Below are positions 2,148 through 23,214 of a stretch of 64,000 bases of DNA, piece by piece. Source of the stretch: Streptomyces sp. WM4235 (GTDB lineage Bacteria; Actinomycetota; Actinomycetes; Streptomycetales; Streptomycetaceae); NCBI RefSeq assembly GCF_001279725.1, contig NZ_LGDE01000001.1:1-64000 (forward strand). The letters are read 5' to 3'. The notes below the pieces were generated by a model. The model saw only the letters and a list, made by a program, of their open reading frames with translations. It ran no database searches and was not told the origin of the DNA. The position numbers and the translations under genes were made by a program. Every line of letters starts with the position of its first letter. The stretch's first letter is position 1.

Positions 2148-2255
2148 CGGCGATCGGCGGCCGAGGCGCGGGAGAAGACGGCGGCGACGCGGGAGCGGAC
2201 GACGAGCGACGCGGGAGAACGGGTGGCCGGGAACGACCGGACCACCCGTTTTCCC

Positions 2256-2312
2256 ATTGGTATAGACATGGCCAACTCTCGTCAATAATCTGGGACTTGG
2301 TCTAGACCTGGA
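2256..2312 (+). promoter_or_regulatory. Two DasR-like (dre) boxes upstream of the AA10 gene
   Basis: Two related 15-16 nt elements lie 59-115 nt before the AA10 start: TTGGTATAGACATGG (about 2257-2271) and ACTTGGTCTAGACCTGG (2295-2311). Both resemble the Streptomyces DasR operator ACTGGTCTAGACCACT and the TGGTCTAGACC repeats known from chitinase promoters. The second contains an uninterrupted GGTCTAGACC palindrome. Repression relieved by glucosamine-6-phosphate is inferred from the family, not shown here. Confidence 0.75.
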
Positions 2313-2370
2313 AACCATCCCCACGCGTGCGCACGCTCTCGCCAGACTCCCCCCACGTCCAAGGAGCATC

Positions 2371-2979
2371 ATGCGTTCCTTCCGCATGCCCAAACGAGCC
2401 GGCGTCACGGCCCTCGGTCTCGGCCTCGTCGCCGGCGCCACCCTCCTCGGCACCCCCACCGCCAGCAGTCACGGATACACCGACACCCCCATCAGTCGCC
2501 AGAAGCTCTGTGCCAACAAGACCGTCTCCAACTGCGGCCAGATCCAGTGGGAACCGCAGAGCGCCGAGGGCTTCAAGGGCTTCCCGGCCGCCGGACCGGC
2601 CGACGGGAAGATATGCGCGGCCGGCAACGCCCAGTTCGCCGAACTCGACGACCAGCGCGGCGGGACCTGGCCCGCCACCCGCGTCAACAGCGGCCAGAGC
2701 TACGGCTTCCGGTGGCAGTTCACCGCCAACCACTCCACCACCGACTTCAAGTACTACGTCACCAAGAACGGCTGGGACCCCACCAAGCCGCTCACCCGGG
2801 CCGCCCTCGACCCCCAGCCCTTCCTCACGGTCGCCTACAACGGCGCCCGCCCCGCCATGACCACCGTCCACCAGGGCGCCATGCCGAGCGGGAAGACCGG
2901 TCGGCACATGATCCTGGCGGTCTGGACCGTCAACGACACCCCGATGGCCTTCTACTCCTGCTCCGACGTTCAATTCTGA
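2371..2979 (+). CDS. Secreted AA10 lytic polysaccharide monooxygenase (chitin-active)
   Basis: This 202-residue copper enzyme oxidatively cleaves crystalline chitin outside the cell. The signal peptide (residues 1-33) ends at ASS|H, so the mature protein begins with His34, the first ligand of the copper histidine brace. His121, in the TANHSTTDF segment, is the likely second ligand. The closing CSDVQF places the axial Phe at the last residue, as in chitin-binding AA10 enzymes. There is no extra carbohydrate-binding module, so the length is typical for a single AA10 domain. The ATG is preceded by AAGGAG. Two dre boxes upstream suggest DasR control, shared with the chitinase at 7431 and the hexosaminidase at 45671. 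The gene ends inside a perfect palindrome that separates it from the next gene. Confidence 0.93.
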   Translation: MRSFRMPKRAGVTALGLGLVAGATLLGTPTASSHGYTDTPISRQKLCANKTVSNCGQIQWEPQSAEGFKGFPAAGPADGKICAAGNAQFAELDDQRGGTWPATRVNSGQSYGFRWQFTANHSTTDFKYYVTKNGWDPTKPLTRAALDPQPFLTVAYNGARPAMTTVHQGAMPSGKTGRHMILAVWTVNDTPMAFYSCSDVQF

Positions 2980-2990
2980 CGTAACGTCAG
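2976..2990. promoter_or_regulatory. Perfect 15-nt palindrome CTGACGTAACGTCAG, candidate operator
   Basis: A 7-1-7 inverted repeat, CTGACGT-A-ACGTCAG, overlaps the stop codon of the AA10 gene and lies 15 nt before the acyl-CoA ligase start. It is too short and too loop-poor for a terminator, so a repressor operator (TetR type) for the ligase is more likely. The binding protein is unknown. Confidence 0.5.
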
Positions 2991-3005
2991 CTAACCTCCG
3001 GCGGC

Positions 3006-4682
3006 ATGCGGACGACGACCACACCCGACACCGTCGCGGAGCTCATCGCGCGCCAATGGGGCGACCACCGGCCCGGGCTGAAGCACGAGCACGCCGTCCT
3101 CAGCCGCCACCGGACCGCCCAGGAGGCCGCCGCGCGCGCCGCGCTGCTCGTCGACCTCCTGCCGCCGGAGGCCGAGCCGCACCTGGGAGTGCTGCTCGAC
3201 AACACCCCGGAGTTCCCGTTCTGGCTCGGCGCGGCGGCCCTCGCGGGGGCCGCCGTCGCCGGGATCAACCCGACCCGGCGCGGCCCCGAACTGGCCCGCG
3301 ACATCCTGCACACCGACTGCCGGATCCTCGTCACCGAGCGCGCCCACCTGCCGCTGCTGCGCGGCCTCGACCTGCCGGGCGTACGGATCCTCGTGACCGA
3401 CACCGAGGAGTACGCGCGACTGCTGGCGCCCTACGCGGGAGCCAAGCCGGGGGAGGCCGTACTCTCCGGCGGCCCCACCCCCGCCTCCCGGATGCTCCTC
3501 TACTTCACCTCCGGCTCCACCGGCGCCCCCAAGGCCGCCCTCTGCACCCAGGGCCGCCTGGCCGCCGCCGGAACCGCGCTGGCCCGCCGGTTCTCGGTCA
3601 CCCCCGACGACGTCCACTACGTCTGCATGCCGCTCTTCCACGGCAACGCGGTCATCGCCGACTGGCTGCCGGCGCTGGCCGGCGGCGCGTCCGTGGCCCT
3701 GAGGCGGCGCTTCTCGGCCTCCCGGTTCCTGGACGACGTACGGGCCTACGAGGCCACCTACTTCACCTACGTCGGCCGGGCGATCCAGTACCTCCTGGCC
3801 ACCGAGCCCCGCCCCGACGACCGCGCGCACACCCTGCGGCTCGGCTTCGGCACCGAGGCCGGCGCGGTGGACGCCGCCCGCTTCACCGAGCGGTTCGGGG
3901 TCCGCCTGGTGGAGGGCTACGGGGCCACCGAGGGCGGCGCGTCCGTGGTCCGCACCCCCGACACCCCGCCGGCCGCACTGGGCCGCGCCGGCGCCGGGGA
4001 CGACCTCGCGGTCGTCGACCCGCAGACGGGCAGGCAATGCCCGGCGGCCGTCCTCGACGGCTCGGGCCGCCTCCTCAACGGCCGCGAGGCCATCGGGGAA
4101 CTCGTCAACCGAGGTCGCGGCCTCTTCGAGGGCTACTGGCGCAACCCCGACGCCGAGGCGGCGCGCACCCGCGACGGCTGGTACTGGACCGGAGACCTCT
4201 TCTTCCGGGACGCCGCCGGATTCCTCTACTTCGCGGGCCGCACCGACGACCGACTGCGGGTCGACAGCGAGAACCTCGCCGCGGCCGTCATCGAGAACGT
4301 CCTCGCCCGATGGGAGGACGCGGCGGCCGTGGCGGTCTACGCCGTGCCGGACGAGGTCGCGGGCGACCAGGTGATGGCGGCCGTCGCCCTCCGCCCGGGG
4401 GCGACGTTCTCCCCGTCGGCGTTCGCCGCGTTCCTCGCCGCGCAGCCCGACCTGGGCACGAAGATGCCGCCGCGCTACGTCCGGGTGGTCCCCGAGATGC
4501 CGACGACGGCGACGAACAAGGTCCACCGCGTGGCCCTGCGCCGCGCCGGCTTCCGCTGCCCGGACCCGGTCTGGTGGTCCCCGCCGGGCGAACCGGGTTA
4601 CCGGCCCCTGGACGCCCAGTCCCTGGCCGCCCTGCTGTCCTCCTACGAGGCCCAGGGCCGGTCCGACCTCCTGGACCGCTGA
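3006..4682 (+). CDS. Acyl-CoA synthetase (AMP-binding, FadD17-like)
   Basis: This 558-residue adenylating enzyme activates a carboxylic acid, probably a fatty acid, with ATP and joins it to CoA. The AMP-binding P-loop YFTSGSTGAPKAAL lies near residues 168-181, the VEGYGATEGG motif near 305, the GDLFFRDAAGF hinge-region motif near 400, and the catalytic Lys region ATNKVHRVALRR near the C terminus. The overall order matches bacterial class I fatty-acyl-CoA ligases of about 500-560 residues. The start codon has only a weak ribosome site. The gene follows the secreted AA10 gene by 26 nt, but the palindrome between them suggests its own promoter. The substrate cannot be read from sequence. Confidence 0.88.
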   Translation: MRTTTTPDTVAELIARQWGDHRPGLKHEHAVLSRHRTAQEAAARAALLVDLLPPEAEPHLGVLLDNTPEFPFWLGAAALAGAAVAGINPTRRGPELARDILHTDCRILVTERAHLPLLRGLDLPGVRILVTDTEEYARLLAPYAGAKPGEAVLSGGPTPASRMLLYFTSGSTGAPKAALCTQGRLAAAGTALARRFSVTPDDVHYVCMPLFHGNAVIADWLPALAGGASVALRRRFSASRFLDDVRAYEATYFTYVGRAIQYLLATEPRPDDRAHTLRLGFGTEAGAVDAARFTERFGVRLVEGYGATEGGASVVRTPDTPPAALGRAGAGDDLAVVDPQTGRQCPAAVLDGSGRLLNGREAIGELVNRGRGLFEGYWRNPDAEAARTRDGWYWTGDLFFRDAAGFLYFAGRTDDRLRVDSENLAAAVIENVLARWEDAAAVAVYAVPDEVAGDQVMAAVALRPGATFSPSAFAAFLAAQPDLGTKMPPRYVRVVPEMPTTATNKVHRVALRRAGFRCPDPVWWSPPGEPGYRPLDAQSLAALLSSYEAQGRSDLLDR

Positions 4683-4858
4683 CCCGGGCCCCGCGACCAC
4701 CCCGAGGGTGTGGCCGGCGTCACCGCCCCCGGGCCGCCCCGCCGGGGGCCCATGGCGCGGCCCGGACCCCGGGGTCGGCGTGAGCGCGGGGTCCTCGCGC
4801 ACCTCGGGGGTAATGGTTTTGAGCACTCCCGGGGACCGGGTAGTATTTTCTCTGTCAG

Positions 4859-4932
4859 GCGCCGCTAGCTCAGTTGGTTAGAGCAGCTGACTCTTAATCA
4901 GCGGGTCCGGGGTTCGAGTCCCTGGCGGCGCA
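4859..4932 (+). tRNA. tRNA-Lys (CTT)
   Basis: A 74-nt cloverleaf with acceptor stem GCGCCGC/GCGGCGC and discriminator A. The D loop is AGCTCAGTTGGTTAGAGC. The anticodon stem-loop is CTGA-CTCTTAA-TCAG, giving anticodon CTT, and the T arm carries GGTTCGAGTCC. CCA is not encoded. A second, identical copy lies in inverted orientation at 13229-13302. Confidence 0.97.
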
Positions 4933-4937
4933 CTTGT

Positions 4938-4977
4938 ACTTCGGGCGGTTTCCGGTTCACCGGGAACCGCCCGAAGT
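4938..4977 (+). terminator. Terminator after tRNA-Lys
   Basis: A 13-bp stem, ACTTCGGGCGGTT (4938-4950) with AACCGCCCGAAGT (4965-4977), encloses a 14-nt loop. It follows the tRNA by 5 nt and lies before the convergent IclR gene's end, so it may serve both directions. Confidence 0.85.
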
Positions 4978-5044
4978 GGTTTCCGGGCCCCGGCGCAACG
5001 GCCCGAGCGGCCTTCGGGGTGTTCGTCCCCGGGTGCGCGGCCCG

Positions 5045-5803
5045 TCAGAGCGTGAGCGACAGCAGCAGCGGCGCGGCCTTCCGGTTCAGCGTCTCCGCCG
5101 CGGCCCGCAGCCGGTGCGCGTGCTCGACCGGCATCGACAGGGCCAGGCAGCCCACCGAGGCGCCGGCGGTGATCGGTACCGCCGCGCAGACGGTGCCCAC
5201 GGCGTACTCCTGGAGGTCCAGCACGGGCACGGTGGCGGGCTGGCTGTCCAGCTTGGAGAACAGCACGCGCTCGTTCACGATCGTCTTCGAGGTCAGTCGG
5301 GCGATCTTGTGCCGGGACAGGTGGTCCCGTCGACCGTTCTGGTCGAGCTGGGTCAGCAGGCACTTGCCGACCGCGCTGGCGTGCGCCGCCGAGCGGAAGT
5401 CGACCCACTCGTGCACCTTCGGGGTGCGCGGACTGTCCGCGAACTGGGTGATGCGGACCTCGCCGTCGACGTAGCGGCTGATGTAGACCGCCGCTCCGAC
5501 CGAGTCCCGCAGTCGGTCCAGGGTGTCCTGGAGCTTGTCCTGGAGGGCCTGCTGCCGGTCGACGCCGGAGCCGAGGAGGACGAGGGAGTCCCCTATGGCG
5601 TAGGCGCCGTCGGAGACCTGGAGCACGTACCCCTCCCGGCGCAGCATGAGCAGCATCGGGGACAGGTGGGCCGAGGGCAGGCCTGTCTCACGCGCTATCT
5701 GCGCGTCGGTCACACCGCCGGTGTGCCGGGCGATCGTTTCGAGTACGCGAAGGGCGTACTGCACCGAATGGAACGGCGCGATCGGCTCGGGCTTCAGCGC
5801 CAC
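5045..5803 (-). CDS. IclR-family transcriptional regulator
   Basis: A 252-residue DNA-binding protein. The N-terminal winged helix-turn-helix (about residues 10-70) contains SVQYALRVLETIARHTGGVTD and IARETGLPSAHLSPML. A C-terminal IclR effector domain (about 80-245) includes the conserved SAVGKCLL segment and a Cys-containing GTVCAAVPITAG strand. It is divergent from the luciferase-like oxidoreductase at 6051 with 247 nt between them, and an inverted repeat in that gap may be its operator. It is convergent with tRNA-Lys. The effector is unknown. The sequence does not obviously match the amino-acid regulator NdgR. Confidence 0.9.
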   Translation of the reverse strand: MALKPEPIAPFHSVQYALRVLETIARHTGGVTDAQIARETGLPSAHLSPMLLMLRREGYVLQVSDGAYAIGDSLVLLGSGVDRQQALQDKLQDTLDRLRDSVGAAVYISRYVDGEVRITQFADSPRTPKVHEWVDFRSAAHASAVGKCLLTQLDQNGRRDHLSRHKIARLTSKTIVNERVLFSKLDSQPATVPVLDLQEYAVGTVCAAVPITAGASVGCLALSMPVEHAHRLRAAAETLNRKAAPLLLSLTL

Positions 5804-5846
5804 GGTTTTCCCCCTACCAGGTTGTTACCGCTTGCTCCCCCACGAT

Positions 5847-5899
5847 AGCCATCAAGAGGCTTGTGTGGAGCGCCTGTTGAAGAGATTGATGGCTCAATC
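5847..5899. promoter_or_regulatory. Dyad between IclR gene and divergent oxidoreductase
   Basis: AGCCATCAA (5847-5855) is repeated inverted as TTGATGGCT (5886-5894), centres about 39 nt apart. The right arm sits inside a second palindrome, GATTGA-TGGC-TCAATC (5884-5899). The position in a divergent promoter region suggests an IclR operator; binding is inferred. Confidence 0.45.
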
Positions 5900-6050
5900 A
5901 AGTCCCTCTGCCTGGACCTACCCGCCTGGCATATGCCAGAGGCATGGCCGACTCGGCGGCCCGTCGGGAATGCCCCGGCCCCCTCGATGGTTCGAATTCC
6001 TCGTACGGACATGCAGGAAGCCGCGAGGGCCGCACGGGACGGGAGCGACG

Positions 6051-7178
6051 ATGAATGACGCCGGGGACGAGGGAATCAGGGCAGCCGGGACGGGAGGCAC
6101 CGCGGATCCGATCCGGGGGACCGTACGGGGGAGCGCGCCGGTCCCGCTCTCGGTGCTGGACCTCGTCACCGTCGGGGCCGGCAGCACCGCCCAGGCGTCG
6201 CTGCGCACCAGCGTGGCGATCTCCCGGCTGGCCGAATCCCGGGGGTTCCACCGGCACTGGGTGGCCGAACACCACTCCATGCCCGGCGTGGCAAGCTCCT
6301 CCCCGGCGGTGATCCTCGCCCACCTCGCCGCCCACACCTCCCGGATACGGCTCGGCTCGGGCGGGGTCATGCTGCCCAACCACGCCCCGCTGGCCGTCGC
6401 CGAGCAGTTCGGCACCCTGGAGGCCTTCGCCCCGGGCCGGATCGACCTCGGACTGGGGCGCGCGCCCGGCACGGACCCCCGTACCGCGGCCGCGCTGCGC
6501 GGAGCCGGACGGGCGGACGCCGCCGCCGACGGATTCCCCCGGCAGCTGGGGGAGCTGATCCGCTTCCTCGACGACGACTTCCCCGACGGACACCCCTACG
6601 CCCGAGTGCACGCCGTGCCCGGCCCCGTGCAGGGCCCCGCCGGTCGACCGCCGATCTGGTTGCTCGGCTCCTCCGGTTTCAGCGCCCGCCTCGCCGGCGA
6701 GCTCGGCCTGCCCTTCGCGTACGCCCACCACTTCTCGGCGGCCGGCACGATTCCCGCGCTGGACCTGTACCGGCAGAGCTTCCGACCCTCGGCCGTGCTC
6801 GACGCCCCCTACGCCCTGATCGGCGCCGCGGCCCTGGCCGCCGACACCGACGAGGAGGCCCGGGCGCAGGTGCTCACGGGCGCGCTGTCGATGCTGCGGC
6901 TGCGCGGCGGACGACCCGGGCTGGTCCCGACGCCCGAGGAGGCGGCCGCGTACCCCTTCTCGCCGCTGGAGCGGGAGTTCGTGGACGGCTGGCTCGCGAA
7001 CATCGTCCACGGCACCCCCGACGAGGTCCGCGAGGGACTCGACGACCTGGTGAAGCGGACGGGCGCGGACGAGCTGATGCTGACCGCCAACGCCCATGGC
7101 GGGGAGGCCCGGTTGCGATCGTACGGGCTCATCGCAGATGCGTACGGCATGCCGACGCAGGACTCGAACCCCGCCTGA
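6051..7178 (+). CDS. LLM-class flavin-dependent oxidoreductase (MsnO8-like)
   Basis: A 375-residue luciferase-like monooxygenase, expected to use reduced FMN in a TIM barrel. Landmarks are LSVLDLVTVGAG near residue 33, the HWVAEHHSMPGVASSSP motif near 80, RIRLGSGGVMLPNHAPLAVAEQ near 105-125, and RIDLGLGRAPGTDP near 138. These match the subgroup named after MsnO8. The ATG at 6051 was chosen because GGGAGCGACG directly precedes it, although the frame is open upstream. It is divergent from the IclR gene, which may regulate it, and is followed by a strong hairpin at 7248. The substrate is unknown. Confidence 0.88.
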   Translation: MNDAGDEGIRAAGTGGTADPIRGTVRGSAPVPLSVLDLVTVGAGSTAQASLRTSVAISRLAESRGFHRHWVAEHHSMPGVASSSPAVILAHLAAHTSRIRLGSGGVMLPNHAPLAVAEQFGTLEAFAPGRIDLGLGRAPGTDPRTAAALRGAGRADAAADGFPRQLGELIRFLDDDFPDGHPYARVHAVPGPVQGPAGRPPIWLLGSSGFSARLAGELGLPFAYAHHFSAAGTIPALDLYRQSFRPSAVLDAPYALIGAAALAADTDEEARAQVLTGALSMLRLRGGRPGLVPTPEEAAAYPFSPLEREFVDGWLANIVHGTPDEVREGLDDLVKRTGADELMLTANAHGGEARLRSYGLIADAYGMPTQDSNPA

Positions 7179-7247
7179 GCGCACAAGAACGGGGTTTGGC
7201 TGGTTTGTTGCCAAAACCTTGCCCGCACATGGCTTAGTGCAGCCTTA

Positions 7248-7278
7248 AACCGCTCGTCACCCGGGGTGGCGAGCGGTT
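7248..7278 (+). terminator. Terminator after the luciferase-like gene
   Basis: A near-perfect 15-bp stem, AACCGCTCGTCACCC with GGGTGGCGAGCGGTT (one G:T pair), closes almost without a loop. It starts 70 nt after the stop codon at 7178. Confidence 0.75.
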
Positions 7279-7323
7279 CTGCGTATGCCCTCAGGTCTCT
7301 GACGAGGCCTTTTGGCGCCTGAG

Positions 7324-7353
7324 TGGTCTAGTCCTTCTTTGGTCCAAACCATT
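7324..7353 (+). promoter_or_regulatory. Two direct DasR-like repeats in the chitinase promoter
   Basis: TGGTCTAGTCC (7324-7334) and TGGTCCAAACC (7340-7350) are direct repeats 16 nt apart, about 80-107 nt before the chitinase start. Direct repeats of this TGGTCYAGACC type are a known hallmark of Streptomyces chitinase promoters and overlap DasR operators. Regulation here is inferred from that similarity. Confidence 0.7.
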
Positions 7354-7430
7354 GACTGGGGGCCGGGGTGATCGCTATCACTTCTCTCACCTGAAGCTGA
7401 TGCCCCCCTCCCACCCCCCGGAGTCAGTTC

Positions 7431-9137
<1,707 letters not shown>

Positions 9138-9698: not shown

Positions 9699-11570
9699 CT
9701 AGCCCTCGGCCCCGGGGCGCGAGCCGATCATCTCGGCGATCCGTTCCGGGGCCACGGCCCGCGAGTACAGCCAGCCCTGGCCCGTGTCGCAGCCCACGCG
9801 GCGCAGGCGCGCCGCCTGGCCCGCGGTCTCCACGCACTCGGCGGTGACCGTCAGGCCCAGCCGGTGGGCGAGTTGGACGAGCGCCTCGACGATGGTCTCG
9901 TCGGCCGGATTCGGGTGCGAGCCCTCCTCGTAGCGGAACCCGCGGACGAAGGAGCCGTCCAGCTTCAGCACCGACACCGGCAACCGGCTCAGGTAGGCCA
10001 GGTTCGAGTACCCGGTGCCGAAGTCGTCGATGGCGATCCGCACGCCCATGTCGCTCAGCGCCTGGAGTGCCTGCAACGGCCGGCCCGCCGAGCCCATCAC
10101 CGCCGACTCCGTCAGCTCCAACTGGAGCAGTTGCGGGGCCAGTCCGGTCTCGGCGAGGATCTCCGCGACATCGCCGACCAGGTCCGAGTCCCACACCTGG
10201 CGCACCGCGACGTTGACGGAGACGAACACCGGCGCGTCACTGGGCTGTTCGATCTGCCAGCGGCGCGCCTGCCGGCAGGCGGTCCGCAGCACCCACTGTC
10301 CCAACGGGACGATGGAGCCGTCCTCTTCGGCGATCCCGATGAACCGATTCGGCGTCAACATGCCGAACTGCGGGTGGTTCCAGCGCACCAGGGCCTCCAC
10401 CCCGCGCACCGTCCCGCTCTCCAGGTCCACCAGCGGCTGGTACTCCAGTCGGAACTCGTCCCGCTCCACGGCCGGTCGCAGCGTCGAGGACAGGGCCTGC
10501 CGGGTCATGCGGTGCGCGTTGCGCTCCGGGTCGAAGAGGGTCCAGCGGGCCTTGCCGTCCGCCTTCGCCCAGTACAGGGTCGTGTCGGCGGCCTGCATCA
10601 GCCCCGTCGCGGAGGTCCCGGCCGCCGCCCGCTCCACCACGCCGATCGACGCGGATACCGACAGTCGCTGACCGGCCAGGTCGAACGGCTCCTGTACGGC
10701 GTTCAACACGCTCCGCGCCAGGTCCGCGAGTTGCTCGGTACCGGTGGAGTCCTCCACCAGCAGGGCGAACTCGTCGCCGCCGAGCCGGGCCACCAGGTGC
10801 CCGCTCGTGCGCCCGTACCCGGACTGGTCGGCGCACTGCGTCAGCCGGGCCGCGACGGCCGCCAGCAGCCGGTCCCCGACCCGGTGGCCCAGGGTGTCGT
10901 TGACGGCCTTGAACCCGTCGAGGTCCAGGTAGCACAGCCCGATCCGCCCCGTGCCGCCGTGCTCGTACGAGGAGTGCTCCAGAGCGGCGGAGAGCCGCTC
11001 GAAGAACAGTGTCCGGTTGGGGAGTCGGGTCACCGGGTCGTGCATCTGGAGGTGGCGCAGCCGGGCCTGGAGGTCGCGCCGGTCGCTGATGTCGGCGACC
11101 GACAGCAGGACGTCCCCGCTTCCGGGGACCGGCCCGAGGGTGACCTCGGTCCACAGCGAGTGTCCGTCGGGGTGTTTGAGGCGGCGGGTGCAGCGCAGTC
11201 GGGCCTGCCGGCCGCGGAGCACCTCCTGGTAGGCCTGCCAGGTGCGGGCCTCCGCGGCGAGGTCCACCAGGTCGGCGGCGGACCGTTCGACGAGCGCGAG
11301 CGGTTCGGCGCCCAGCAGCGCGGCGAGTGCCTCGTTGGCGGCGACGACGTGCCCGCTGCGGTCGACGACGGCCATCGCGAGATGGGCCGCGTTGAAGGCG
11401 GCCTGGTAGTCGCGTGCCCCGGACGTGCGCGGGGACCGCGGGGCCGACGCGGTGGCCGCCGCGGGTTCGCTCGACATGCCGGGCACTGCCGGCACTGCCG
11501 GGTGACGCTCCGTAGTGGCCGATCGGATGCGGTCGGCCGCCGAACCGGTTCCCTCTGAGGTTCCGCTCAC
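9699..11570 (-). CDS. Cytoplasmic PAS-GGDEF-EAL cyclic-di-GMP enzyme
   Basis: A 623-residue protein that could both make and degrade cyclic di-GMP, the ligand of the developmental regulator BldD. Order: disordered N terminus (1-50), PAS sensor (about 52-165), GGDEF domain with an intact GGDEF at 264-268, and EAL domain with VEALVRW (EAL at 392-394), ELTES, DDFGTGYS and KLDGSFV motifs. Both catalytic signatures are intact. The RxxD inhibitory site expected just before GGDEF is absent (RTSGHLVARL is found instead), so product inhibition may be weak. No membrane helix is seen. The GTG start has GGGAG 7 nt upstream. The architecture resembles Streptomyces CdgA/RmdA; which one is not decided here. 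Confidence 0.92.
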   Translation of the reverse strand: MSGTSEGTGSAADRIRSATTERHPAVPAVPGMSSEPAAATASAPRSPRTSGARDYQAAFNAAHLAMAVVDRSGHVVAANEALAALLGAEPLALVERSAADLVDLAAEARTWQAYQEVLRGRQARLRCTRRLKHPDGHSLWTEVTLGPVPGSGDVLLSVADISDRRDLQARLRHLQMHDPVTRLPNRTLFFERLSAALEHSSYEHGGTGRIGLCYLDLDGFKAVNDTLGHRVGDRLLAAVAARLTQCADQSGYGRTSGHLVARLGGDEFALLVEDSTGTEQLADLARSVLNAVQEPFDLAGQRLSVSASIGVVERAAAGTSATGLMQAADTTLYWAKADGKARWTLFDPERNAHRMTRQALSSTLRPAVERDEFRLEYQPLVDLESGTVRGVEALVRWNHPQFGMLTPNRFIGIAEEDGSIVPLGQWVLRTACRQARRWQIEQPSDAPVFVSVNVAVRQVWDSDLVGDVAEILAETGLAPQLLQLELTESAVMGSAGRPLQALQALSDMGVRIAIDDFGTGYSNLAYLSRLPVSVLKLDGSFVRGFRYEEGSHPNPADETIVEALVQLAHRLGLTVTAECVETAGQAARLRRVGCDTGQGWLYSRAVAPERIAEMIGSRPGAEG

Positions 11571-13313: not shown

Positions 13314-13874
13314 CTAGACATTAGCATCAGGATCGGCCGAACCAAAAATCGATACCTGCAGGCGGGCGGCGTGCAGGAAGGCCCAGAGCAGCGAATCGGC
13401 GCCCGGCAGCCAGGGCCGCCGGGAGTCCGGGGCCACCAGCCAGCGGGACGGCCCCGGAGAGGGCGCCAGCGGGGGCACGGTGACCGCGTCGCCCCGGCCG
13501 TGACAGAGCGGGGCGGCCGTGGTCTCGCCCCATTCCTCCCAGGCGAGCAGCGCCGGCAGCCGCTGGGCGGTGCCCGGCGCGGCGAAGAGCAGCGTCCGGC
13601 CGCGGTGCACGGCGGCGGGCCCGGAACCGGGCCCCTCGGCCCACAGCAGGTCGAGCATGCGGCGCCCGAGCACGAGCGGGACGTTGACGACGTCGAAGGT
13701 GGTCCCGCAGGGCAGCGCGGCCGGAGCGGCGGGCCGCGCCCGCCACGCGGCGAGCGTGTCGTGGGGCAGGGCGCACGCGGAGGCGAGCCAGGCCGCGCCC
13801 TCGGAGGTGACGAGGGTCGCGGACGCGGGGGAGGTGCGGACTTCGAGGGCGGCGCAGCCTGTCAGAGTCGTCAT
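13314..13874 (-). CDS. Conserved hypothetical protein (primase-polymerase N-terminal-like)
   Basis: A 186-residue protein. It has no signal peptide or membrane helix. Segments such as GAAWLASACALPHDTLAAW, LPCGTTFDVVNVP and GRTLLFAAPGTAQRLP recall the N-terminal region of Streptomyces proteins annotated as bifunctional DNA primase/polymerase-like. The acidic catalytic triad of true Prim-Pol enzymes is not recognisable, so any enzymatic role is doubtful. It lies just upstream of tRNA-Lys on the same strand, and its stop codon is 12 nt before the tRNA. The start ATG (reverse CAT at 13872-13874) gives MTTLTGCAALEV. Function unknown. Confidence 0.75.
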   Translation of the reverse strand: MTTLTGCAALEVRTSPASATLVTSEGAAWLASACALPHDTLAAWRARPAAPAALPCGTTFDVVNVPLVLGRRMLDLLWAEGPGSGPAAVHRGRTLLFAAPGTAQRLPALLAWEEWGETTAAPLCHGRGDAVTVPPLAPSPGPSRWLVAPDSRRPWLPGADSLLWAFLHAARLQVSIFGSADPDANV

Positions 13875-14037: not shown

Positions 14038-14385
14038 CTAGGGGCCGTCCGGGTGGCCGTCCCGCAGCAGGGTCTCGCCGAACTCGATCATCTTGACCGC
14101 GTAGTCCTCGGTCCACTCCGCCTGCTCCGCGATGGCCGCCGCGGGCAGCCGGTCGAACCGGCGCGGGTCGGCCAGCTGCGCCGCGGCGACGGCCTGGAAC
14201 TCCACCGCGCGCTCCTGGGCCGCCCGGAAGGCCAGCGTCAGCTCGGTCGCACGGGTCAGCAGCTCCCGCGGGTCGTCCATCGACTCCAGGTCGAAGAAGT
14301 GCTCCGGGTCCGTTGCCACCTCGGAAGGCTCGAAGAGCAGCGGCGCGGGCCGCAACCTCCGCTCGGTGCGCTCGGGCTCTGCCAT
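14038..14385 (-). CDS. Conserved hypothetical protein, 115 residues
   Basis: A small soluble, acidic, helix-rich protein (LTRATELTLAFRAAQERAVEFQAVAAAQL in the middle). The ATG at 14385 was chosen because GGAGG precedes it by 5 nt; upstream codons in frame are poor. The C-terminal half, WTEDYAVKMIEFGETLLRDG, looks like an amphipathic helix. No domain was recognised. It is probably transcribed separately from the FMN reductase upstream, 82 nt away. Confidence 0.7.
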   Translation of the reverse strand: MAEPERTERRLRPAPLLFEPSEVATDPEHFFDLESMDDPRELLTRATELTLAFRAAQERAVEFQAVAAAQLADPRRFDRLPAAAIAEQAEWTEDYAVKMIEFGETLLRDGHPDGP

Positions 14386-14467
14386 GCGTGTCCTCCTGCT
14401 GCGCGTACGTCGTCCCTTCAGGGCCACCCTCCATTGTCCAACGTCGCGCAAGAGTGCACCCGGGGTG

Positions 14468-15172: not shown

Positions 15173-16501
15173 TCAGGGCCGCCAGGCCACCCGATGCTCC
15201 GCCAGGTGCGCCAGCACCGAGTGGTTGGCCTCCCAGCCGTCCGGGAACTTCACCGTCACCCCCAGCTGTACCGGCTCCGAGGACGGATGGTCGTCCAGGA
15301 GTTCCGCTATGCCCGCCCGGGCCACCACCACACAGGCGTGCCGGTGTCGGGACGCCAGCACGCACAACCGCCCCGTCTCCAGGTGGAACGCGGTCGCGTC
15401 CGGCCGCCCCGACAGCGGGTGCAGCACCACCGTCAGGTCGAACTCCCGTCCCTGGAGCCGGTTCGCGGTGTCCACCGTCACCCCCGGGACGCCCAGCGCC
15501 GTCAGCGCCGCCCGCACGGCGGCGGCCTGGTCCCGGTGGGCGGTGCCCACCGCGATCCGGTCGGCGGTCAACGGCGCGGGGCCCGCCGACTGTTCGTCCT
15601 CCGTCACCGCACCCCGGTCCAGCGCCCGGCGCACCACCAGGGCCACCGCCCGCACCGCCTCCGGGTCGGTCCGCGGCGTGTGTCGCGCGGGCAGCTCCAG
15701 CAGGCCCCAGCCCGACTCCGCGGCCTCGTCCAACACCCGGTCCGGCCCCGAACCGTCCGAGGCGACCCCGTACGACAGCTTCCGCTCACCGGGGCCGGTG
15801 CCGCTGCGGAACCGGCTGTACGGGTAGAACGCCCGCGACACCAGCGGCGCGGCCGACGCGGGCAGCCGCCAGGACACCGGCAGCCGGTGCTGCGGCAGGT
15901 GCGGGTTGTGCGCCAGCAGGGTGGACACCGCCGAGGCGGAGGGGTCGTAGGACAGCCCGGCCCACTGCTCCGCGCCGACCACGCTGAACGGGTCGAGCTG
16001 CCCGGGGTCGCCCACGAACAGCGCCCGCTCGAACAGCCCGGCCACGGCCAACAGCGCGTCGGAACGCATCTGGTAGGCCTCGTCCACGATGGCGTGCTCC
16101 CACGGATCCGTGTCCTTCACGTACGCCCACTTCGCCGCCGTCGAGATGGTGATCGGCAGCTCGGCGAGGTCGGCCGGCTTCGCCGACAGGGTCACCGAGG
16201 GCAGCTCGCGCAGCGCCGGGTCGTAGGCGTCGCCGTCGCTGCTGTGCAGCCGGCCGACCTTCAGCCCCGGATCCTTGCCGTGCAACCGCAACACCAGGTC
16301 GTCGACCTGCGCGTTCGTCTGCGCGACCACCATCAGCCGGCGCCCGGCGGCGGCCAGCTCCCGGGCGGCCCGGACCACGAGCGTGGACTTGCCGGCGCCC
16401 GGCGGGGAGTCGACGACCACGCCCCGATCCGCGCCGTGCAGGGTGTCGTGCAGGATGGCGGCGGTCGCCCGGTCTGCGGCCGCTCCCGGATCGAAACTCA
16501 C
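15173..16501 (-). CDS. Superfamily 1 DNA/RNA helicase-like ATPase
   Basis: A 442-residue helicase core without extra nuclease domains. Motif I is DSPPGAGKST (31-40), motif II is VDEAY (139-143), motif III is GDPGQLDP (164-171), motif IV is SWRLP (210-214), motif V is VDTANRLQGREFD (343-355) and motif VI is ASRHRHACVVV (383-393). The pattern is closest to Upf1/Dna2-like SF1B enzymes. The GTG start at 16501 overlaps the stop of the upstream gene (GTGA), so translation is coupled. It is the last gene of a three-gene operon with a protein of unknown function and a Cas4/RecB-like nuclease. A joint role in DNA end processing or defence is inference. Confidence 0.87.
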   Translation of the reverse strand: MSFDPGAAADRATAAILHDTLHGADRGVVVDSPPGAGKSTLVVRAARELAAAGRRLMVVAQTNAQVDDLVLRLHGKDPGLKVGRLHSSDGDAYDPALRELPSVTLSAKPADLAELPITISTAAKWAYVKDTDPWEHAIVDEAYQMRSDALLAVAGLFERALFVGDPGQLDPFSVVGAEQWAGLSYDPSASAVSTLLAHNPHLPQHRLPVSWRLPASAAPLVSRAFYPYSRFRSGTGPGERKLSYGVASDGSGPDRVLDEAAESGWGLLELPARHTPRTDPEAVRAVALVVRRALDRGAVTEDEQSAGPAPLTADRIAVGTAHRDQAAAVRAALTALGVPGVTVDTANRLQGREFDLTVVLHPLSGRPDATAFHLETGRLCVLASRHRHACVVVARAGIAELLDDHPSSEPVQLGVTVKFPDGWEANHSVLAHLAEHRVAWRP

Positions 16502-18075
16502 AACAGGTCCTCGGCGGTCACGGGATCGGGCGCGGGCAGGTGCGGTCGGTCGGCGCTCAGGTGCGCCGGCGGCCCGCCGTGCGTCCACGGGGTCTTCTCC
16601 GGCTCGGGCAGCCTGGGGCCGCCGCGCGCGTCGTGCTCGAACAGCGTCCAGCAGAGCCGGTCGCCCTTCTCCGGCACCGAGCCGGGAGTGGGCTCCTTGC
16701 CGCCGCCCATCTTGTCGAGCAGCCGCAGCACGATCCGCCCCGCCTCCTCGAACCGCACGAACTCGGCCGCCTGCGGGCGTCCGTCGAGCGAACGGAACAC
16801 CTTCCCGCCCCCGCCGTCCGCCAGCTGCGGCCGGTCCTCGGTGTCCACCGTCACCAGCGGGCGCGGCCGCGGCCGTTTGGCCTGCGTCCACTCCATGACC
16901 ACCTCGGTGACCTCGCCGGCGAAGGCCTCCCCGGACAGCCGCCGACCCGCCATCACCAGGGGGTCGTCCAGCGCCTCCTGGGCGTCGAGACGGACCTGTT
17001 CGGTCTCGCGCGTGGCCAGCTTCTGGGCGGCCGTCACCGCGTCGTCGCGGCGCGGCTGCGGGGGCTCGCCGGCCCGCACCCGGTCGCGGTGCCCGGTGTA
17101 CGACCAGCGGTCGCGGGTCCAGCGCTCCTCGGTCCGTTCCCCGGCGGGCAGCGCGCGCACCAGCTCCAGCGCCCGCCACACCGCCTCCCACGTCGGGCGC
17201 ATCTGGTCCGCGACGAGTTCCCGGACGTCCCGCTCGGCCCGCTCGACGGCGGCCGGATCGCCCGAGGCGCGCGCCGCGTCGTAGCGGGCCATCGCCGGGG
17301 CCAGCAGCCGGTTGTCGAAGGCGGGGTCGGTGGCCGGTCCGGCGGGCGGGACCAGCAGCCCGCCCCGCGGGTCCCGGGCCACCTCGGCGCGCAGGGCCGC
17401 CTCCGCGCCGGATTCCCCCTCCGGAGGGGCGATCCAGGCGAGCAGGGCGCCCAGGTGCTGGTCCTCCAGGTTGCTCTGGCCCGTCGCCCAGTGCCGACCG
17501 AGCAGGTCCGTCGCCGACAGCAGCATCGAGGAACCGGGCACCCGCGCCCGCTCCCCGAGGTGCGTGAACCAGCGCCCCAGCAGCGGCACCCGGGCCGGCG
17601 CCGGATACGGGTTCTCCGGGTCCTCCTCGGCCGTCCGCCGGAACCGCATCGACCGGCCGAGGAGCCGTACGTACTCCACGCCCGCCCGGCTGGGCACGAT
17701 CAGTTGGGGGGCGTCCAGGCACAGCTCGGCGGCGACCTTGCTCTTGGCGCCCGTCTCGGGATCGGTCTCGTTGCGCTCGACGAGCTCGACGTCGTCCGCG
17801 TACCCGTCCACGTACGGCAGGACCAGGTCGGCCAGCTCCGCGAGGAACGTCCAGCGCAGGTCGCGGTCGCGCGGCTGCGGGACCACGAGCAGCGTCGGCT
17901 CCGCCGGATCGGTGCCGACCAGGGCGCCCAGCGGCGCCCCGGCCTCGCCGGCGGTGGTCAGCGGCACGACGACCAGCGGGCGCTCGCTCAGATGCCGGTG
18001 CCGCACGGTCGCCAGTGCCTGGGCGCGGCCCGCCCGGACCGCCTCCAGGCGCGCGAGGGTGTTCAGCAGGGGCAT
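16498..18075 (-). CDS. Protein of unknown function in nuclease-helicase operon
   Basis: A 525-residue soluble protein with no recognised domain. Visible features: an N-terminal alpha/beta part with repeated beta strands (RPLVVVPLTTAG, PTLLVVPQPRD) and the acidic segment LPYVDGYADDVELVERNETDPETG (about 85-108). A central helical part with many Arg and Glu follows, and a C-terminal strand-rich part (RPRPLVTVDTEDRP, GRIVLRLLDK). It overlaps both neighbours: 13 nt with the nuclease upstream and 4 nt with the helicase downstream. That strongly suggests a functional unit, perhaps a substrate-recognition or bridging subunit. The start ATG (18075) lies inside the nuclease gene's end. This is inference from context only. 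Confidence 0.8.
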   Translation of the reverse strand: MPLLNTLARLEAVRAGRAQALATVRHRHLSERPLVVVPLTTAGEAGAPLGALVGTDPAEPTLLVVPQPRDRDLRWTFLAELADLVLPYVDGYADDVELVERNETDPETGAKSKVAAELCLDAPQLIVPSRAGVEYVRLLGRSMRFRRTAEEDPENPYPAPARVPLLGRWFTHLGERARVPGSSMLLSATDLLGRHWATGQSNLEDQHLGALLAWIAPPEGESGAEAALRAEVARDPRGGLLVPPAGPATDPAFDNRLLAPAMARYDAARASGDPAAVERAERDVRELVADQMRPTWEAVWRALELVRALPAGERTEERWTRDRWSYTGHRDRVRAGEPPQPRRDDAVTAAQKLATRETEQVRLDAQEALDDPLVMAGRRLSGEAFAGEVTEVVMEWTQAKRPRPRPLVTVDTEDRPQLADGGGGKVFRSLDGRPQAAEFVRFEEAGRIVLRLLDKMGGGKEPTPGSVPEKGDRLCWTLFEHDARGGPRLPEPEKTPWTHGGPPAHLSADRPHLPAPDPVTAEDLL

Positions 18076-19259
18076 GCGGTCGCCTCCGGGGACGTCCGGG
18101 CGGGGACGAGGGCGAGGGCCTCGGCGCGCAGCCGCGCGGCCTGGTGCAGCGCGGCCGCGATCGGGTCCTCGGCGCGGCCCGCCCCGGAGGCCGCCGCGAG
18201 GGCCGCCTCCACGGTGGTCAGACCGCCCAGTTCGCCCCGCAGGGACCGGCCGAGCGCGGTCACCTCGTCGGAGTCGCGGGCCCGCTCCCGGCAGTGGAAG
18301 GCCAGCTCGCAGGCGGCCAGGCACTCGGGGGCGTACGCGGCGGTGACGGCGGACACCGCCTCGGTCAGTTCCTCGGCCGGCCGGGCGGGATCGAAGCAGG
18401 TCCCCTCCGGCAGGGCGGCGGCCAGCTCCTCGACGCGGGTCAGCCGCTCCAACTGGCGCCGGGTCACGGCGCGTTCGCGCCGCACGTCGACGAGTGCCGC
18501 GGTGGGCAGGTTGGAGAAGTCCTTGGGGCAGACCAGCACGACCCGGTGACCCACGGTGGAGCCGGGCAGCTTCTCCGCGGTCTTCTCCAGGGCCAGCACG
18601 TATACGGCGGCCTGCCGCGCGGCGGCGCCCACCTTCGCCGCGTCGGCGCCCCCGTCGATCATCGGGAACGACTTGATCTCCACGACGGTCCACTGACCGT
18701 CGGGGTGCACGACGACGGCGTCCGGCTCCAGGTACGCGGGCGTGCCCGCCACCTCCAAGGCCAGCATCGGGTGGTCGAGGAGCGTCCAGGTCCCGGCGGC
18801 CGTGGCCTCGCGCAGGGCCAGCGCCGTGCGGGCGGCGCGTCCCTCGGGGCCGGCGGCGGTGAGATCGGGCACCGGGGTGGCCGGCCCGGGCGGCTCGCCC
18901 CCGGCGCCGAGCCGTTCGTGGACCAGGCGCAGGAGTTCGGCCCCGCCGTCGCCCTTGACCTTGGCCTCGAAGGAGTTGCCGCGCACTATGGCGAACTGGG
19001 ACTGCCCGAAGGGGGCGGGGGAGCCGAGGGCCTGCGCGAGGGCGGTCTTGTCCACCCCGGCCCCGTCGAGCAGGGCCCGTCTGCCGCAGCCCGGGTTGGC
19101 GGCGAGCGCGGCCAGCGCCCGGGCGTCGAGCGGGCGGGGCGGCACGGCGGGGCCGCGCAGGTCAGCGAGCCGCTGCCGCAGTGTCGTCGTCTGCGGTGTT
19201 CTCTGCGGAGGGCCGCCGGTCGGGTAGGAGCTCACGGGCGGAAGTGTCCCATCCGCCAC
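18063..19259 (-). CDS. Cas4/RecB-like PD-(D/E)XK nuclease with probable Fe-S cluster
   Basis: A protein of about 398-400 residues. Numbering from the TTG at 19265, the nuclease core shows Asp182 in LEPDAVVV, Glu196-x-Lys198 in VVEIKSF and Gln218-xxx-Tyr222 in RQAAVYVLAL. This is the classical D...ExK...QxxxY order of RecB/Cas4/AddB nucleases. One Cys lies far upstream (Cys60, NPGCGR) and three lie after the core (Cys315, Cys319, Cys325 in PECLAACELAFHC), the usual 1+3 layout for a 4Fe-4S cluster. The spacing Cx3Cx5C differs slightly from Cas4's usual Cx2C. Start: GTG at 19259 chosen over TTG at 19265; neither has a strong ribosome site. First gene of the operon with the helicase at 15173. No CRISPR array is present. 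Confidence 0.82.
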   Translation of the reverse strand: MADGTLPPVSSYPTGGPPQRTPQTTTLRQRLADLRGPAVPPRPLDARALAALAANPGCGRRALLDGAGVDKTALAQALGSPAPFGQSQFAIVRGNSFEAKVKGDGGAELLRLVHERLGAGGEPPGPATPVPDLTAAGPEGRAARTALALREATAAGTWTLLDHPMLALEVAGTPAYLEPDAVVVHPDGQWTVVEIKSFPMIDGGADAAKVGAAARQAAVYVLALEKTAEKLPGSTVGHRVVLVCPKDFSNLPTAALVDVRRERAVTRRQLERLTRVEELAAALPEGTCFDPARPAEELTEAVSAVTAAYAPECLAACELAFHCRERARDSDEVTALGRSLRGELGGLTTVEAALAAASGAGRAEDPIAAALHQAARLRAEALALVPARTSPEATACPC

Positions 19260-19308
19260 TGACAATCGTGGTCTTACACCGGAAACCGGCTGTTCCCGAG
19301 CGGAACCG

Positions 19309-19482
19309 GCGGGCCGGGAGCAGGCCCAGACCCATCACGGCGGCCCCGGCGACGACGTCCAGGAAGTAGTGGTTGGCCGTGCCCATGACCACCAGCGCGG
19401 TGGCGGCCGGGTAGGCGATCCCCAGGGCCCGCGCGAGGGGGTGCCGGGCGTGGGTCCCATCGAGGGGGCCGCTGCCTGTCAG
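19309..19482 (-). pseudogene. Remnant of a PAP2-type phosphatase C terminus
   Basis: On the minus strand, a short stretch reads ARALGIAYPAATALVV and then MGTANHYFLDVVAG, the second active-site segment of membrane PAP2/inositol-phosphorylceramide-synthase-like phosphatases (conserved His in NHY and Asp in LD). The frame is closed by a TGA at 19483-19485, and nothing upstream encodes the rest of the enzyme. The reading frame runs on into the start of the nuclease gene without PAP2 similarity. It is therefore read as a decayed gene end. Confidence 0.55.
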
Positions 19483-19614
19483 TCATGGGGTGCAGGACGC
19501 TTGCGCGACCGGGGGAGTTGCCCGGTGTACGGGTGATGGATGATGGACGAACGACGGAACCGCCTCGAAAGCGGGCCGATCCGTACACATCAACATGTAC
19601 CGGGAGAAATTCAC

Positions 19615-20211
19615 ATGGCCCCCCGCATCCTGCTGGCCCGCCACGGCCAGACGGCGTGGTCGCAGCTCGGCAAGCACACCGGACGCACCGACGTGCCCCT
19701 GCTGGAGGAGGGCCGGCGGGGCGCGAAGCTGCTCGGAGAACGGCTGGCGCGCGAACCGTGGGCGGGCCTGCCCGGCTTGGAGGTGCGCACCAGCCCCCTG
19801 GTCCGCGCGAGCGAGAGCTGCGACCTGGCCGGCTTCGGGGCCCGCGCCGAACCCTGGGACACCCTGATGGAGTGGGACTACGGCGACTACGAGGGCATGG
19901 CCCCGGCCGAGATCCAGGCGATCCGCCCCGGCTGGCTGATCTGGCGCGACGGGGTCCCCGGCGGCGAGTCCGTCGCGGACGTCGCCGCCCGCGCCGACGA
20001 GGTCGTCGCCTGGGCCCGCTCGGCCGAACGCGACGTCCTCGTCTTCGCCCACGGCCACGTCCTGCGCACGCTCGCCGCCCGCTGGCTCGGCTTCGAGGCC
20101 TCCTTCGGCGCCCGGATCCGGCTGGACCCCACCTCCCTGTCGGTGCTGGGCTGGGCGTACGGCGAACCCGCGCTGGAACGCTGGAACGACACCGGCCATC
20201 TGGACGGCTGA
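19615..20211 (+). CDS. Histidine phosphatase (phosphoglycerate-mutase-like) family protein
   Basis: A 198-residue cytoplasmic phosphatase. The catalytic RHG motif is in [12 protein letters not shown] (His9 phospho-acceptor region), the second conserved Arg lies in [11 protein letters not shown], the WDYGDYEG acid motif near residues 86-93, and the second His in [15 protein letters not shown] near 144-158. All core residues are present. The ATG at 19615 is preceded by GGGAGAAATTC; a longer frame starts at 19540 but adds residues without homology. The substrate is not predictable. It is divergent from the PAP2 remnant, and a GC-rich tandem repeat follows the stop codon. Confidence 0.9.
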
Positions 20212-22344: not shown

Positions 22345-23214
22345 ATGGCAGGGAAGAGCAAGGGCAGCGGGCGCAGGGGCGCCGTGGAGCCGGTCGTCGG
22401 GCAGGTGGACGGCGGCCGGGCGGAGTTGGCCCCCGATCGCGAGCGAGCGGGCGCCTGGACCCTGCTGATCGACGGGGCGCCGCAGTCACACGTCGACCTC
22501 ACCGACCCCGGGTACCTGGACTTCGCGTACCAGCGCCGGATCGGCCACCTCATCGACCTCGTCGCGCCCGCCCGGCAGCCCCTGAACGTGGTGCACCTGG
22601 GCGGCGGAGCCTTCACCCTGGCCCGCTACACCGCGGCGAGCCGCCCCCGCTCCACCCAGCAGGTGGTGGAGATCGACGCCGGCCTGGTGGCCTTCGTACG
22701 GGAACACCTGCCGCTGGACCCGCAGGCACGGGTCCGGGTGCGGGCCGTGGACGCGCGCGCGGGCCTCGCCAAGGTGCCGGACGGCTGGGCCGACCTGGTC
22801 ATCGCGGACGTGTTCGGCGGCGCCCGCACCCCGGCCCACCTGACGAGCGCCGAGTTCCTCGACGACGTACGCCGGGCCCTGGCACCCGGCGGCTGGTACG
22901 TGGCCAACCTCGCCGACGGCCCGCCGCTGGCACACCTGAAGGGCCAGATCGCCACCGCCGCCACCCGGTTCACGGAACTGGCCCTGGCCGCCGACCCCGT
23001 GGTGTGGCGGGGGAAACGCTTCGGCAACGCCGTGCTCGTGGCCGCCGACCGGGAGCTGCCGGTCGCGGAGTTCACCCGGCGCGTGGCCACCGATCCCCAC
23101 CCCGGGCGGGTGGAGCACGGTCGGGCGCTCGCGGACTTCGCGGGCGGCGCGGCCCCGGTGACCGACGCCTCGGCGGTGGCCTCGCCGGAACCCCCGCCGT
23201 CGGTGTTCCGCTAG
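22345..23214 (+). CDS. Spermidine-synthase-like class I methyltransferase-fold protein
   Basis: A 289-residue Rossmann-fold protein. Landmarks of the spermidine synthase family are ESH-like APQSHVDLTDPGYLDF (about 46-61), the nucleotide loop NVVHLGGGAFTLARY (about 76-90), the acidic strand QQVVEIDAGLV (about 102-112) and IADVFGGARTPAHL (about 154-167). The catalytic Asp of true aminopropyltransferases is replaced in the DVFGG context, as in many orphan members, so polyamine synthesis is unproven. It overlaps the convergent AMP ligase by 4 nt at the stop codons. It is probably co-transcribed with the small protein upstream. Confidence 0.82.
   Translation: MAGKSKGSGRRGAVEPVVGQVDGGRAELAPDRERAGAWTLLIDGAPQSHVDLTDPGYLDFAYQRRIGHLIDLVAPARQPLNVVHLGGGAFTLARYTAASRPRSTQQVVEIDAGLVAFVREHLPLDPQARVRVRAVDARAGLAKVPDGWADLVIADVFGGARTPAHLTSAEFLDDVRRALAPGGWYVANLADGPPLAHLKGQIATAATRFTELALAADPVVWRGKRFGNAVLVAADRELPVAEFTRRVATDPHPGRVEHGRALADFAGGAAPVTDASAVASPEPPPSVFR

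Follow-up and report, generated by a model that had tools for sequence, protein, structure and literature searches.

Three overlapping genes on the minus strand of the window (the analyzed stretch of 64,000 nucleotides from contig NZ_LGDE01000001.1 of Streptomyces sp. WM4235) encode a putative nuclease (NUC), a middle protein (MID), and a helicase (HEL), which probably form one three-subunit helicase-nuclease on the plan of Dna2 and Bad, a single chain being split in domain order. The window belongs to assembly G000 (7.81 Mb, 478 contigs), and its named closest relatives are Streptomyces. NUC, HEL, and the linkage of the genes were read from sequence, the stalk and barrel of MID only from a predicted structural model, and what goes beyond these domain assignments we infer. 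The activities are familiar, the three-gene form is unusual, and we found no description of it. The genes and their main features are as follows.

18063..19259, minus strand: NUC, 398 amino acids; GTG start at 19259 assumed, TTG at 19265 possible
18672..18722, minus strand: NUC active-site codons, D180 and E194-x-K196, invariant in 80/80 core rows
18291..18323, minus strand: NUC cysteine cluster C313/C317/C323 (CX3CX5C); the fourth cysteine, C58, is at 19086-19088
18063..18075, minus strand: NUC/MID overlap, 13 nucleotides
16498..18075, minus strand: MID, 525 amino acids, ATG start, without a Pfam family above the cut-off
16951..17985, minus strand: MID residues 31-375, match to the 3'-5' exonuclease part of archaeal family-B polymerases
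16615..17046, minus strand: MID residues 344-487, likely stalk and beta-barrel of Upf1/Dna2 superfamily 1B (SF1B) helicases
16498..16501, minus strand: MID/HEL overlap, 4 nucleotides
15173..16501, minus strand: HEL, 442 amino acids, GTG start, SF1B (Upf1/Dna2-like) RecA-core helicase
16382..16408, minus strand: Walker A of HEL, residues 32-40

Sequence motifs identify NUC as a RecB/Cas4-like PD-(D/E)XK nuclease whose active-site motif is intact and whose cysteines follow the iron-staple pattern; its Pfam match, PDDEXK_1 (E value 0.0068), lies below the Pfam cut-off. The core loci used for comparison are the best 80 of 124 relatives from a scan of genome contigs, with flanks of up to 10 kb (not all full), named as Streptomyces in 79 cases and as an "Actinobacteria bacterium" in one. 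The NUC core alignment has 80 rows (the window plus 79 of the 80 core loci, L110 being cut at a contig end and left out), and D180, E194, K196, Q216, Y220, and all four cysteines are present in every one. The first-pass annotation, made from the letters alone, had listed D182, E196/K198, and Q218/Y222; the residues are there, but their numbering corresponds to the TTG at 19265 and exceeds by 2 that from a start at 19259. Its layout of one cysteine (C58) plus three is borne out. Against the PDB, phmmer returned nothing for NUC up to an E value of 10; a profile search matched two engineered or de novo proteins (E values of 1.1e-10 and 2.2e-7, over 32 residues), which were set aside as compositional, and besides these gave one match at 0.26. 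No PADLOC family marks NUC as a CRISPR-Cas Cas4 up to an E value of 1.

HEL is by its sequence an SF1B (Upf1/Dna2-like) RecA-core helicase: AAA_11 and AAA_30 exceed the Pfam cut-off, AAA_12 falls just below it, and the motifs GKS/T, DE, GD..Q, R, and QG.E show little or no variation across 115 HEL rows, in agreement with the earlier reading that all superfamily 1 (SF1) motifs are in place. The protein starts almost at Walker A, with no room ahead of it for a stalk and barrel. MID appears to supply this part. It has only subthreshold matches in Pfam, and its AlphaFold model has a predicted local distance difference test (pLDDT) score of 88; a single-sequence model with a pLDDT of 39 was discarded. 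The C-terminal part of the AlphaFold model looks like the helical stalk and beta-barrel that precede the motor in Dna2, IGHMBP2, and Sen1; its best fold matches belong to the helicase family of HEL, and 4 of 6 reach into the helices ahead of the barrel. Residues 31 to 375 are suspected to have an RNase H-like fold, with a first strand that is without D-x-E. MID had been described as a protein of unknown fold, but a likely C-terminal stalk and barrel can be read in the AlphaFold model.

The gene order NUC-MID-HEL is the domain order of Dna2. The coupled trio with overlaps of 13 and 4 nucleotides, as first annotated, agrees with the coordinates, and all three genes lie together in 78 of the 80 core loci; L076 and L110, the exceptions, stop at contig ends. 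Across these 78 loci, the NUC/MID overlap is 13 nucleotides in 31 and 10 nucleotides in 31, and the 4-nucleotide MID/HEL register holds a start codon in 70. The genes are also separate in all further loci with called genes; fused NUC-MID or MID-HEL genes were not seen among the loci read, although no search able to return a fused chain was made. The trio is inherited all-or-none, and where MID is missing, usually all three are missing: nine Streptomyces genomes have no MID match (eight among 150 surveyed, one from a survey of the class), and seven of them have no HEL or NUC match either, one of these (G050) being only 82% complete. The other two, G102 and G112, retain pieces of HEL and NUC, and three of the four pieces are at most 300 bases from the start of a contig, a pattern that assembly gaps would produce. 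Both HEL and NUC were present in two MID-positive genomes searched alongside. HEL lies apart from NUC-MID in G346 and G586, about 36 and 49 kb off on the same strand.

In the mechanism that we propose, docking of HEL with MID would complete one SF1B motor that translocates 5' to 3' along single-stranded DNA. MID would also position NUC at the DNA tunnel mouth for strand cleavage of the Dna2 kind. The loading site of the complex would be either a processed end or a junction of single- and double-stranded DNA, and it would trim single strands or 5' flaps. For the core Streptomyces copy this would mean end or flap processing in genome maintenance, a role favored because of its housekeeping distribution. 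In the case of accessory copies, a partner nuclease, SbcCD or perhaps Wadjet, might generate ends on foreign or damaged DNA that the trio trims; SbcCD could open blocked ends for resection by the trio. Taken together, the trio may trim DNA ends for both repair and defense. If this is true, the whole genus carries a near-universal Dna2-like enzyme, on which we found no study, in three separable subunits, and motor, barrel, and nuclease could be mixed and tested singly, which is impossible with the fused Dna2.

A competing explanation, which we consider rather unlikely, is that the trio is primarily an antiphage or antiplasmid system and its core copy a domesticated or still active defense operon that degrades invading DNA. 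The first-pass annotation had allowed for either DNA repair or defense, and each finds some basis, repair in the housekeeping pattern of the core copy and defense in the neighbors of diverged copies. MID is present in 142 of 150 Streptomyces genomes and in 11 of 296 across the phylum; a profile search found it in 76 of 393 genomes and in 15 of 122 genera of the class. By tblastn, the 80 core loci share a histidine phosphatase (77 loci), open reading frames (ORFs) 14038-14451 (76) and 13314-13874 (75), a TPR protein (70), a spermine-synthase-like protein (67), and a GGDEF-EAL gene (60); the flavin mononucleotide (FMN) reductase directly downstream of the trio has matches in only 19. Twelve queries from accessory loci, ten defense-type proteins and two versions of the extra gene c3 described below, had no tblastn match at 1e-5 in the 80 core loci. 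PADLOC gave one weak match among five window neighbors, that of 22345-23214 (Spermine_synth-like) to mad2 (E value 1e-8), which together with the core loci fits the earlier statement that no known defense gene is nearby, the whole window not having been scanned for defense genes or CRISPR. The wide presence of MID, the common neighbors, and the absence of the tested defense genes form a housekeeping pattern that counts against the defense explanation. Within what was tested there is no convincing defense gene near the window copy, so genome maintenance is the likelier role there. A scan of viral contigs with a single protein, reaching close relatives only, found no relative of the trio, and a search of a viral fold library gave nothing at or below 1e-3.

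Among the other genes near the trio, the GGDEF-EAL cyclic-di-GMP gene lies at 9699-11570 (minus strand), and ORF 13314-13874 (minus strand) encodes a small protein with a weak N-terminal Prim-Pol match (E value 1.3e-5, just above the cut-off). At L134, from a family other than that of Streptomyces, a GGDEF-EAL gene (6749-9013, minus strand) directly follows MID. Directly upstream of NUC, 19270-19464 (minus strand) encodes 65 residues that contain the C terminus of a PAP2-family phosphatase (PAP2_3, E value 1.3e-11, profile positions 145 to 187 of 190) and looks like a truncated gene.

The link to defense loci is a strong one for diverged relatives and not for the window copy. The survey of gene neighborhoods suggested at first pass brought up SbcCD, pPIWI-RE, and Wadjet at diverged copies, but no such link at the window locus in what was tested. 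Among the matches listed, extra diverged trios occupy 16 places in 14 of the 150 Streptomyces genomes, 12 adjoining SbcCD and 4 adjoining pPIWI-RE, and ten of the listed MID matches are 39 to 48% identical to the window MID. One of the 12 is a copy inferred from a mirrored SbcD in G049, which has three MID matches, another of them read as L191; the two MID matches each in G025 and G031 were taken as one core copy in two pieces. Of 21 SbcD matches in the 150 Streptomyces genomes, the best 12 adjoin a trio; none of the remaining nine, which are weaker, has a listed MID match beside it. Within the stretch read, Wadjet genes follow the trio in 8 of 16 SbcCD-linked loci, type I at L010, L011, L128, and L183 and type II at L127, L130, L177, and L184. 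The trio is divergent to pPIWI-RE genes in 5 loci; type III restriction genes adjoin L129 and L133, and a gene of the same methyltransferase cluster adjoins L186. All of these associations favor the defense explanation. On the other side, 18 of the 35 diverged loci, from other families, have neither SbcCD nor pPIWI-RE relatives nearby, no defense-library scan of these having been made.

Apart from L184, which is very distant, the SbcCD-linked copies split into two subclades. These group together, along with L181 (at which no SbcCD is shown), in the MID tree (98/93) but not in the HEL tree; given this disagreement, a single origin of the SbcCD link is not settled. Only fragments of SbcCD stand beside an open trio at L011 (1-2003) and L127 (12677-13207), suggesting that the trio may not depend on SbcCD. 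Several of these cassettes are near DNA ends: about 7 and 15 kb from the ends of single-contig assemblies in G093 and G732, about 13 kb from the end of the linear plasmid of L010, and about 21 to 22 kb from both contig ends in G129 and G049 (the second G049 copy being the inferred one), as terminal repeats would give; in G110 the distance is about 520 kb. Wadjet is enriched towards Streptomyces chromosome ends according to the consulted portion of an Actinobacteria study (PMC10482375), so the position of the cassettes may follow from Wadjet. The terminal-repeat cassette at L189 is flanked by a 1,773-amino-acid NACHT/AAA_16 NTPase and a Mu-type transposase (1710-7031 and 18585-19901). The genes that come after HEL at three SbcCD-linked loci (L136, 11910-14150; L182, 5672-7981; L183, 5794-8043) are related, the L183 product being a helicase with helicase-associated (HA) repeats.

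Among the 35 diverged loci, 28 have the extra gene c3 (about 250 to 300 amino acids) ahead of NUC, as a called gene in 25 and by tblastn in 3. The example at L010 (7971-8816) has an apparent N-terminal coiled coil, and by eye c3 could hold a winged helix. One member matched no Pfam family at 0.01; 17 members gave scattered weak matches (best ABC_tran_CTD, E value 0.0012, in 5 of 17) that were read as coiled coil, and the best PDB matches (E value 0.015) were to coiled coils. The gene has no tblastn match at 1e-5 in the 80 core loci and was not found in G000 (best E value 0.039).

In 38 diverged NUC rows, C313/C317/C323 are kept in all and C58 in 37 (one gap), D180 and Y220 in 38, Q216 in 37, K196 in 33, and E194 in 32. 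E194L and K196R occur jointly in exactly five rows, L125, L129, L131, L133, and L186, which are the five loci adjoining pPIWI-RE genes; L180 has E194A. The five copies form one clade with full support in both the MID and HEL trees, indicating a single event rather than five. This clade has lost nuclease residues and is predicted to be nuclease-dead. Because the adjoining PprPDDEXK protein is a Cas4-like nuclease in its own right (PDDEXK_1, E value 3.3e-23), a nuclease swap is an attractive inference.

A bolder proposal, which we put forward tentatively, is that SbcD-SbcC/c3-NUC-MID-HEL is an undescribed defense system that attacks DNA ends, a bacterial pair of Mre11-Rad50 and Dna2. It would be mobile on plasmids and the terminal repeats of linear Streptomyces chromosomes, would work with Wadjet, destroying the linear pieces that it makes, and in pPIWI-RE systems, which have a Cas4-like nuclease of their own, would have been taken up as a nuclease-dead motor. 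If the Dna2-like reading of the trio is right, accessory copies would pair it with SbcCD, giving bacteria with linear chromosomes a counterpart of the eukaryotic MR/Dna2-type end-processing couple, and the predicted nuclease-dead clade would offer a ready-made evolutionary experiment on turning an enzyme to defense.

For the trio itself, the three-subunit helicase-nuclease has to be weighed against a model, in our view quite unlikely, in which HEL and NUC each work on their own, MID being an adaptor of another fold whose barrel match reflects a common small barrel. Several results weigh against our preferred explanation, and some of them favor the adaptor: the MID fold match is moderate and comes from a predicted structure, FNR and F1 barrels score only slightly below the helicase barrels, and Foldseek gave nothing for MID at 1e-3. 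In addition, hhalign of NUC and MID did not rise above shuffled controls against TM0106 proteins (TIGR03491, e.g., L196), which join a RecB-like nuclease, RNase_H_2 (PF13482), and an SF1 helicase in one chain; this profile-profile match was rejected as not significant. A profile search of the PDB with MID gave one match, at an E value of 0.92. The adaptor model is opposed by the best fold matches, which fall in HEL's own helicase family and cover the part missing from HEL, and by the co-loss and gene overlap of the trio. Far less probable is an AddAB/AdnAB variant for double-strand-end resection, dropped because of the helicase class of HEL: AddAB and AdnAB motors are UvrD-like, AddAB having UvrD-like helicase subunits with a fused nuclease, whereas HEL is AAA_11/AAA_12 and Upf1/Dna2-like, NUC is separate, the trio has one small helicase only, and Streptomyces already has AdnAB.

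Among known systems, AddAB, RecBCD, and AdnAB are likewise end-processing helicase-nucleases but differ from the trio in helicase class and subunit layout. The resemblance to AddAB seen at first pass holds for the iron-staple nuclease of AddB, to which the cysteine plan of NUC is similar as far as the consulted part of the source goes (PMC7430649), but Dna2 and Bad are closer. The first-pass annotation could not assign the trio to a described system and named two outcomes that would refute its reading, a profile naming the trio and active-site residues that vary among orthologues; no Pfam, NCBIfam, or PADLOC profile names it, and the core lineage keeps its active site. NCBIfam and PADLOC gave nothing for NUC or MID up to an E value of 1 and only partial or weak matches for HEL, including a weak one to PprDinG. 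We recognized no description of NUC-MID-HEL among the open-access papers that the searches listed. Other Cas4-like nucleases are tied to UvrD-like helicases, partly in defense, with no Streptomyces or Actinobacteria case seen in the portion of that survey consulted (PMC5704561). Wadjet, pPIWI-RE, and SbcCD are neighbors of accessory trios, and the trio is none of their named parts: NUC and MID match no PADLOC model and HEL no Jet model (JetA-D), and pPIWI-RE genes, which the consulted part of the 2013 description (PMC3702460) gives as an operon of three genes that includes a REase-fold enzyme and a DinG helicase, only adjoin it.

The TM0106 proteins share the apparent order of parts (motif order by eye) and the suspected RNase H-like middle, and HEL aligns with their helicase (E value 9.1e-23), but theirs is a fused chain. 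The family exceeds the cut-off in 1 of 41 genomes and is weak in 3 others, and TIGR03491 has no match at or below 0.001 in G000. Bad of Geobacillus has been characterized biochemically. As far as the source was available (PMC7430649), it is bacterial like the trio and combines an iron-staple nuclease, a 5'-to-3' motor of SF1B type, and a central domain of unknown structure, and its gene adjoins a type III-like methyltransferase, comparable to the type III genes at L129 and L133. It is one chain rather than three, and MID and the center of Bad are alike by description only. The eukaryotic nuclease-helicase Dna2 (5ean, 5eaw, 5eax) is likewise encoded by one gene. The trio has no identified OB domain, and some 340 residues at the N terminus of MID are additional to the Dna2 plan. 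With the domain order of Dna2 taken from the consulted part of its structure paper (PMC4716839), the trio appears to have the same sequence of parts: an apparent four-cysteine, iron-staple RecB-family nuclease with cysteines spanning the domain, a predicted stalk and barrel, and an SF1B motor.
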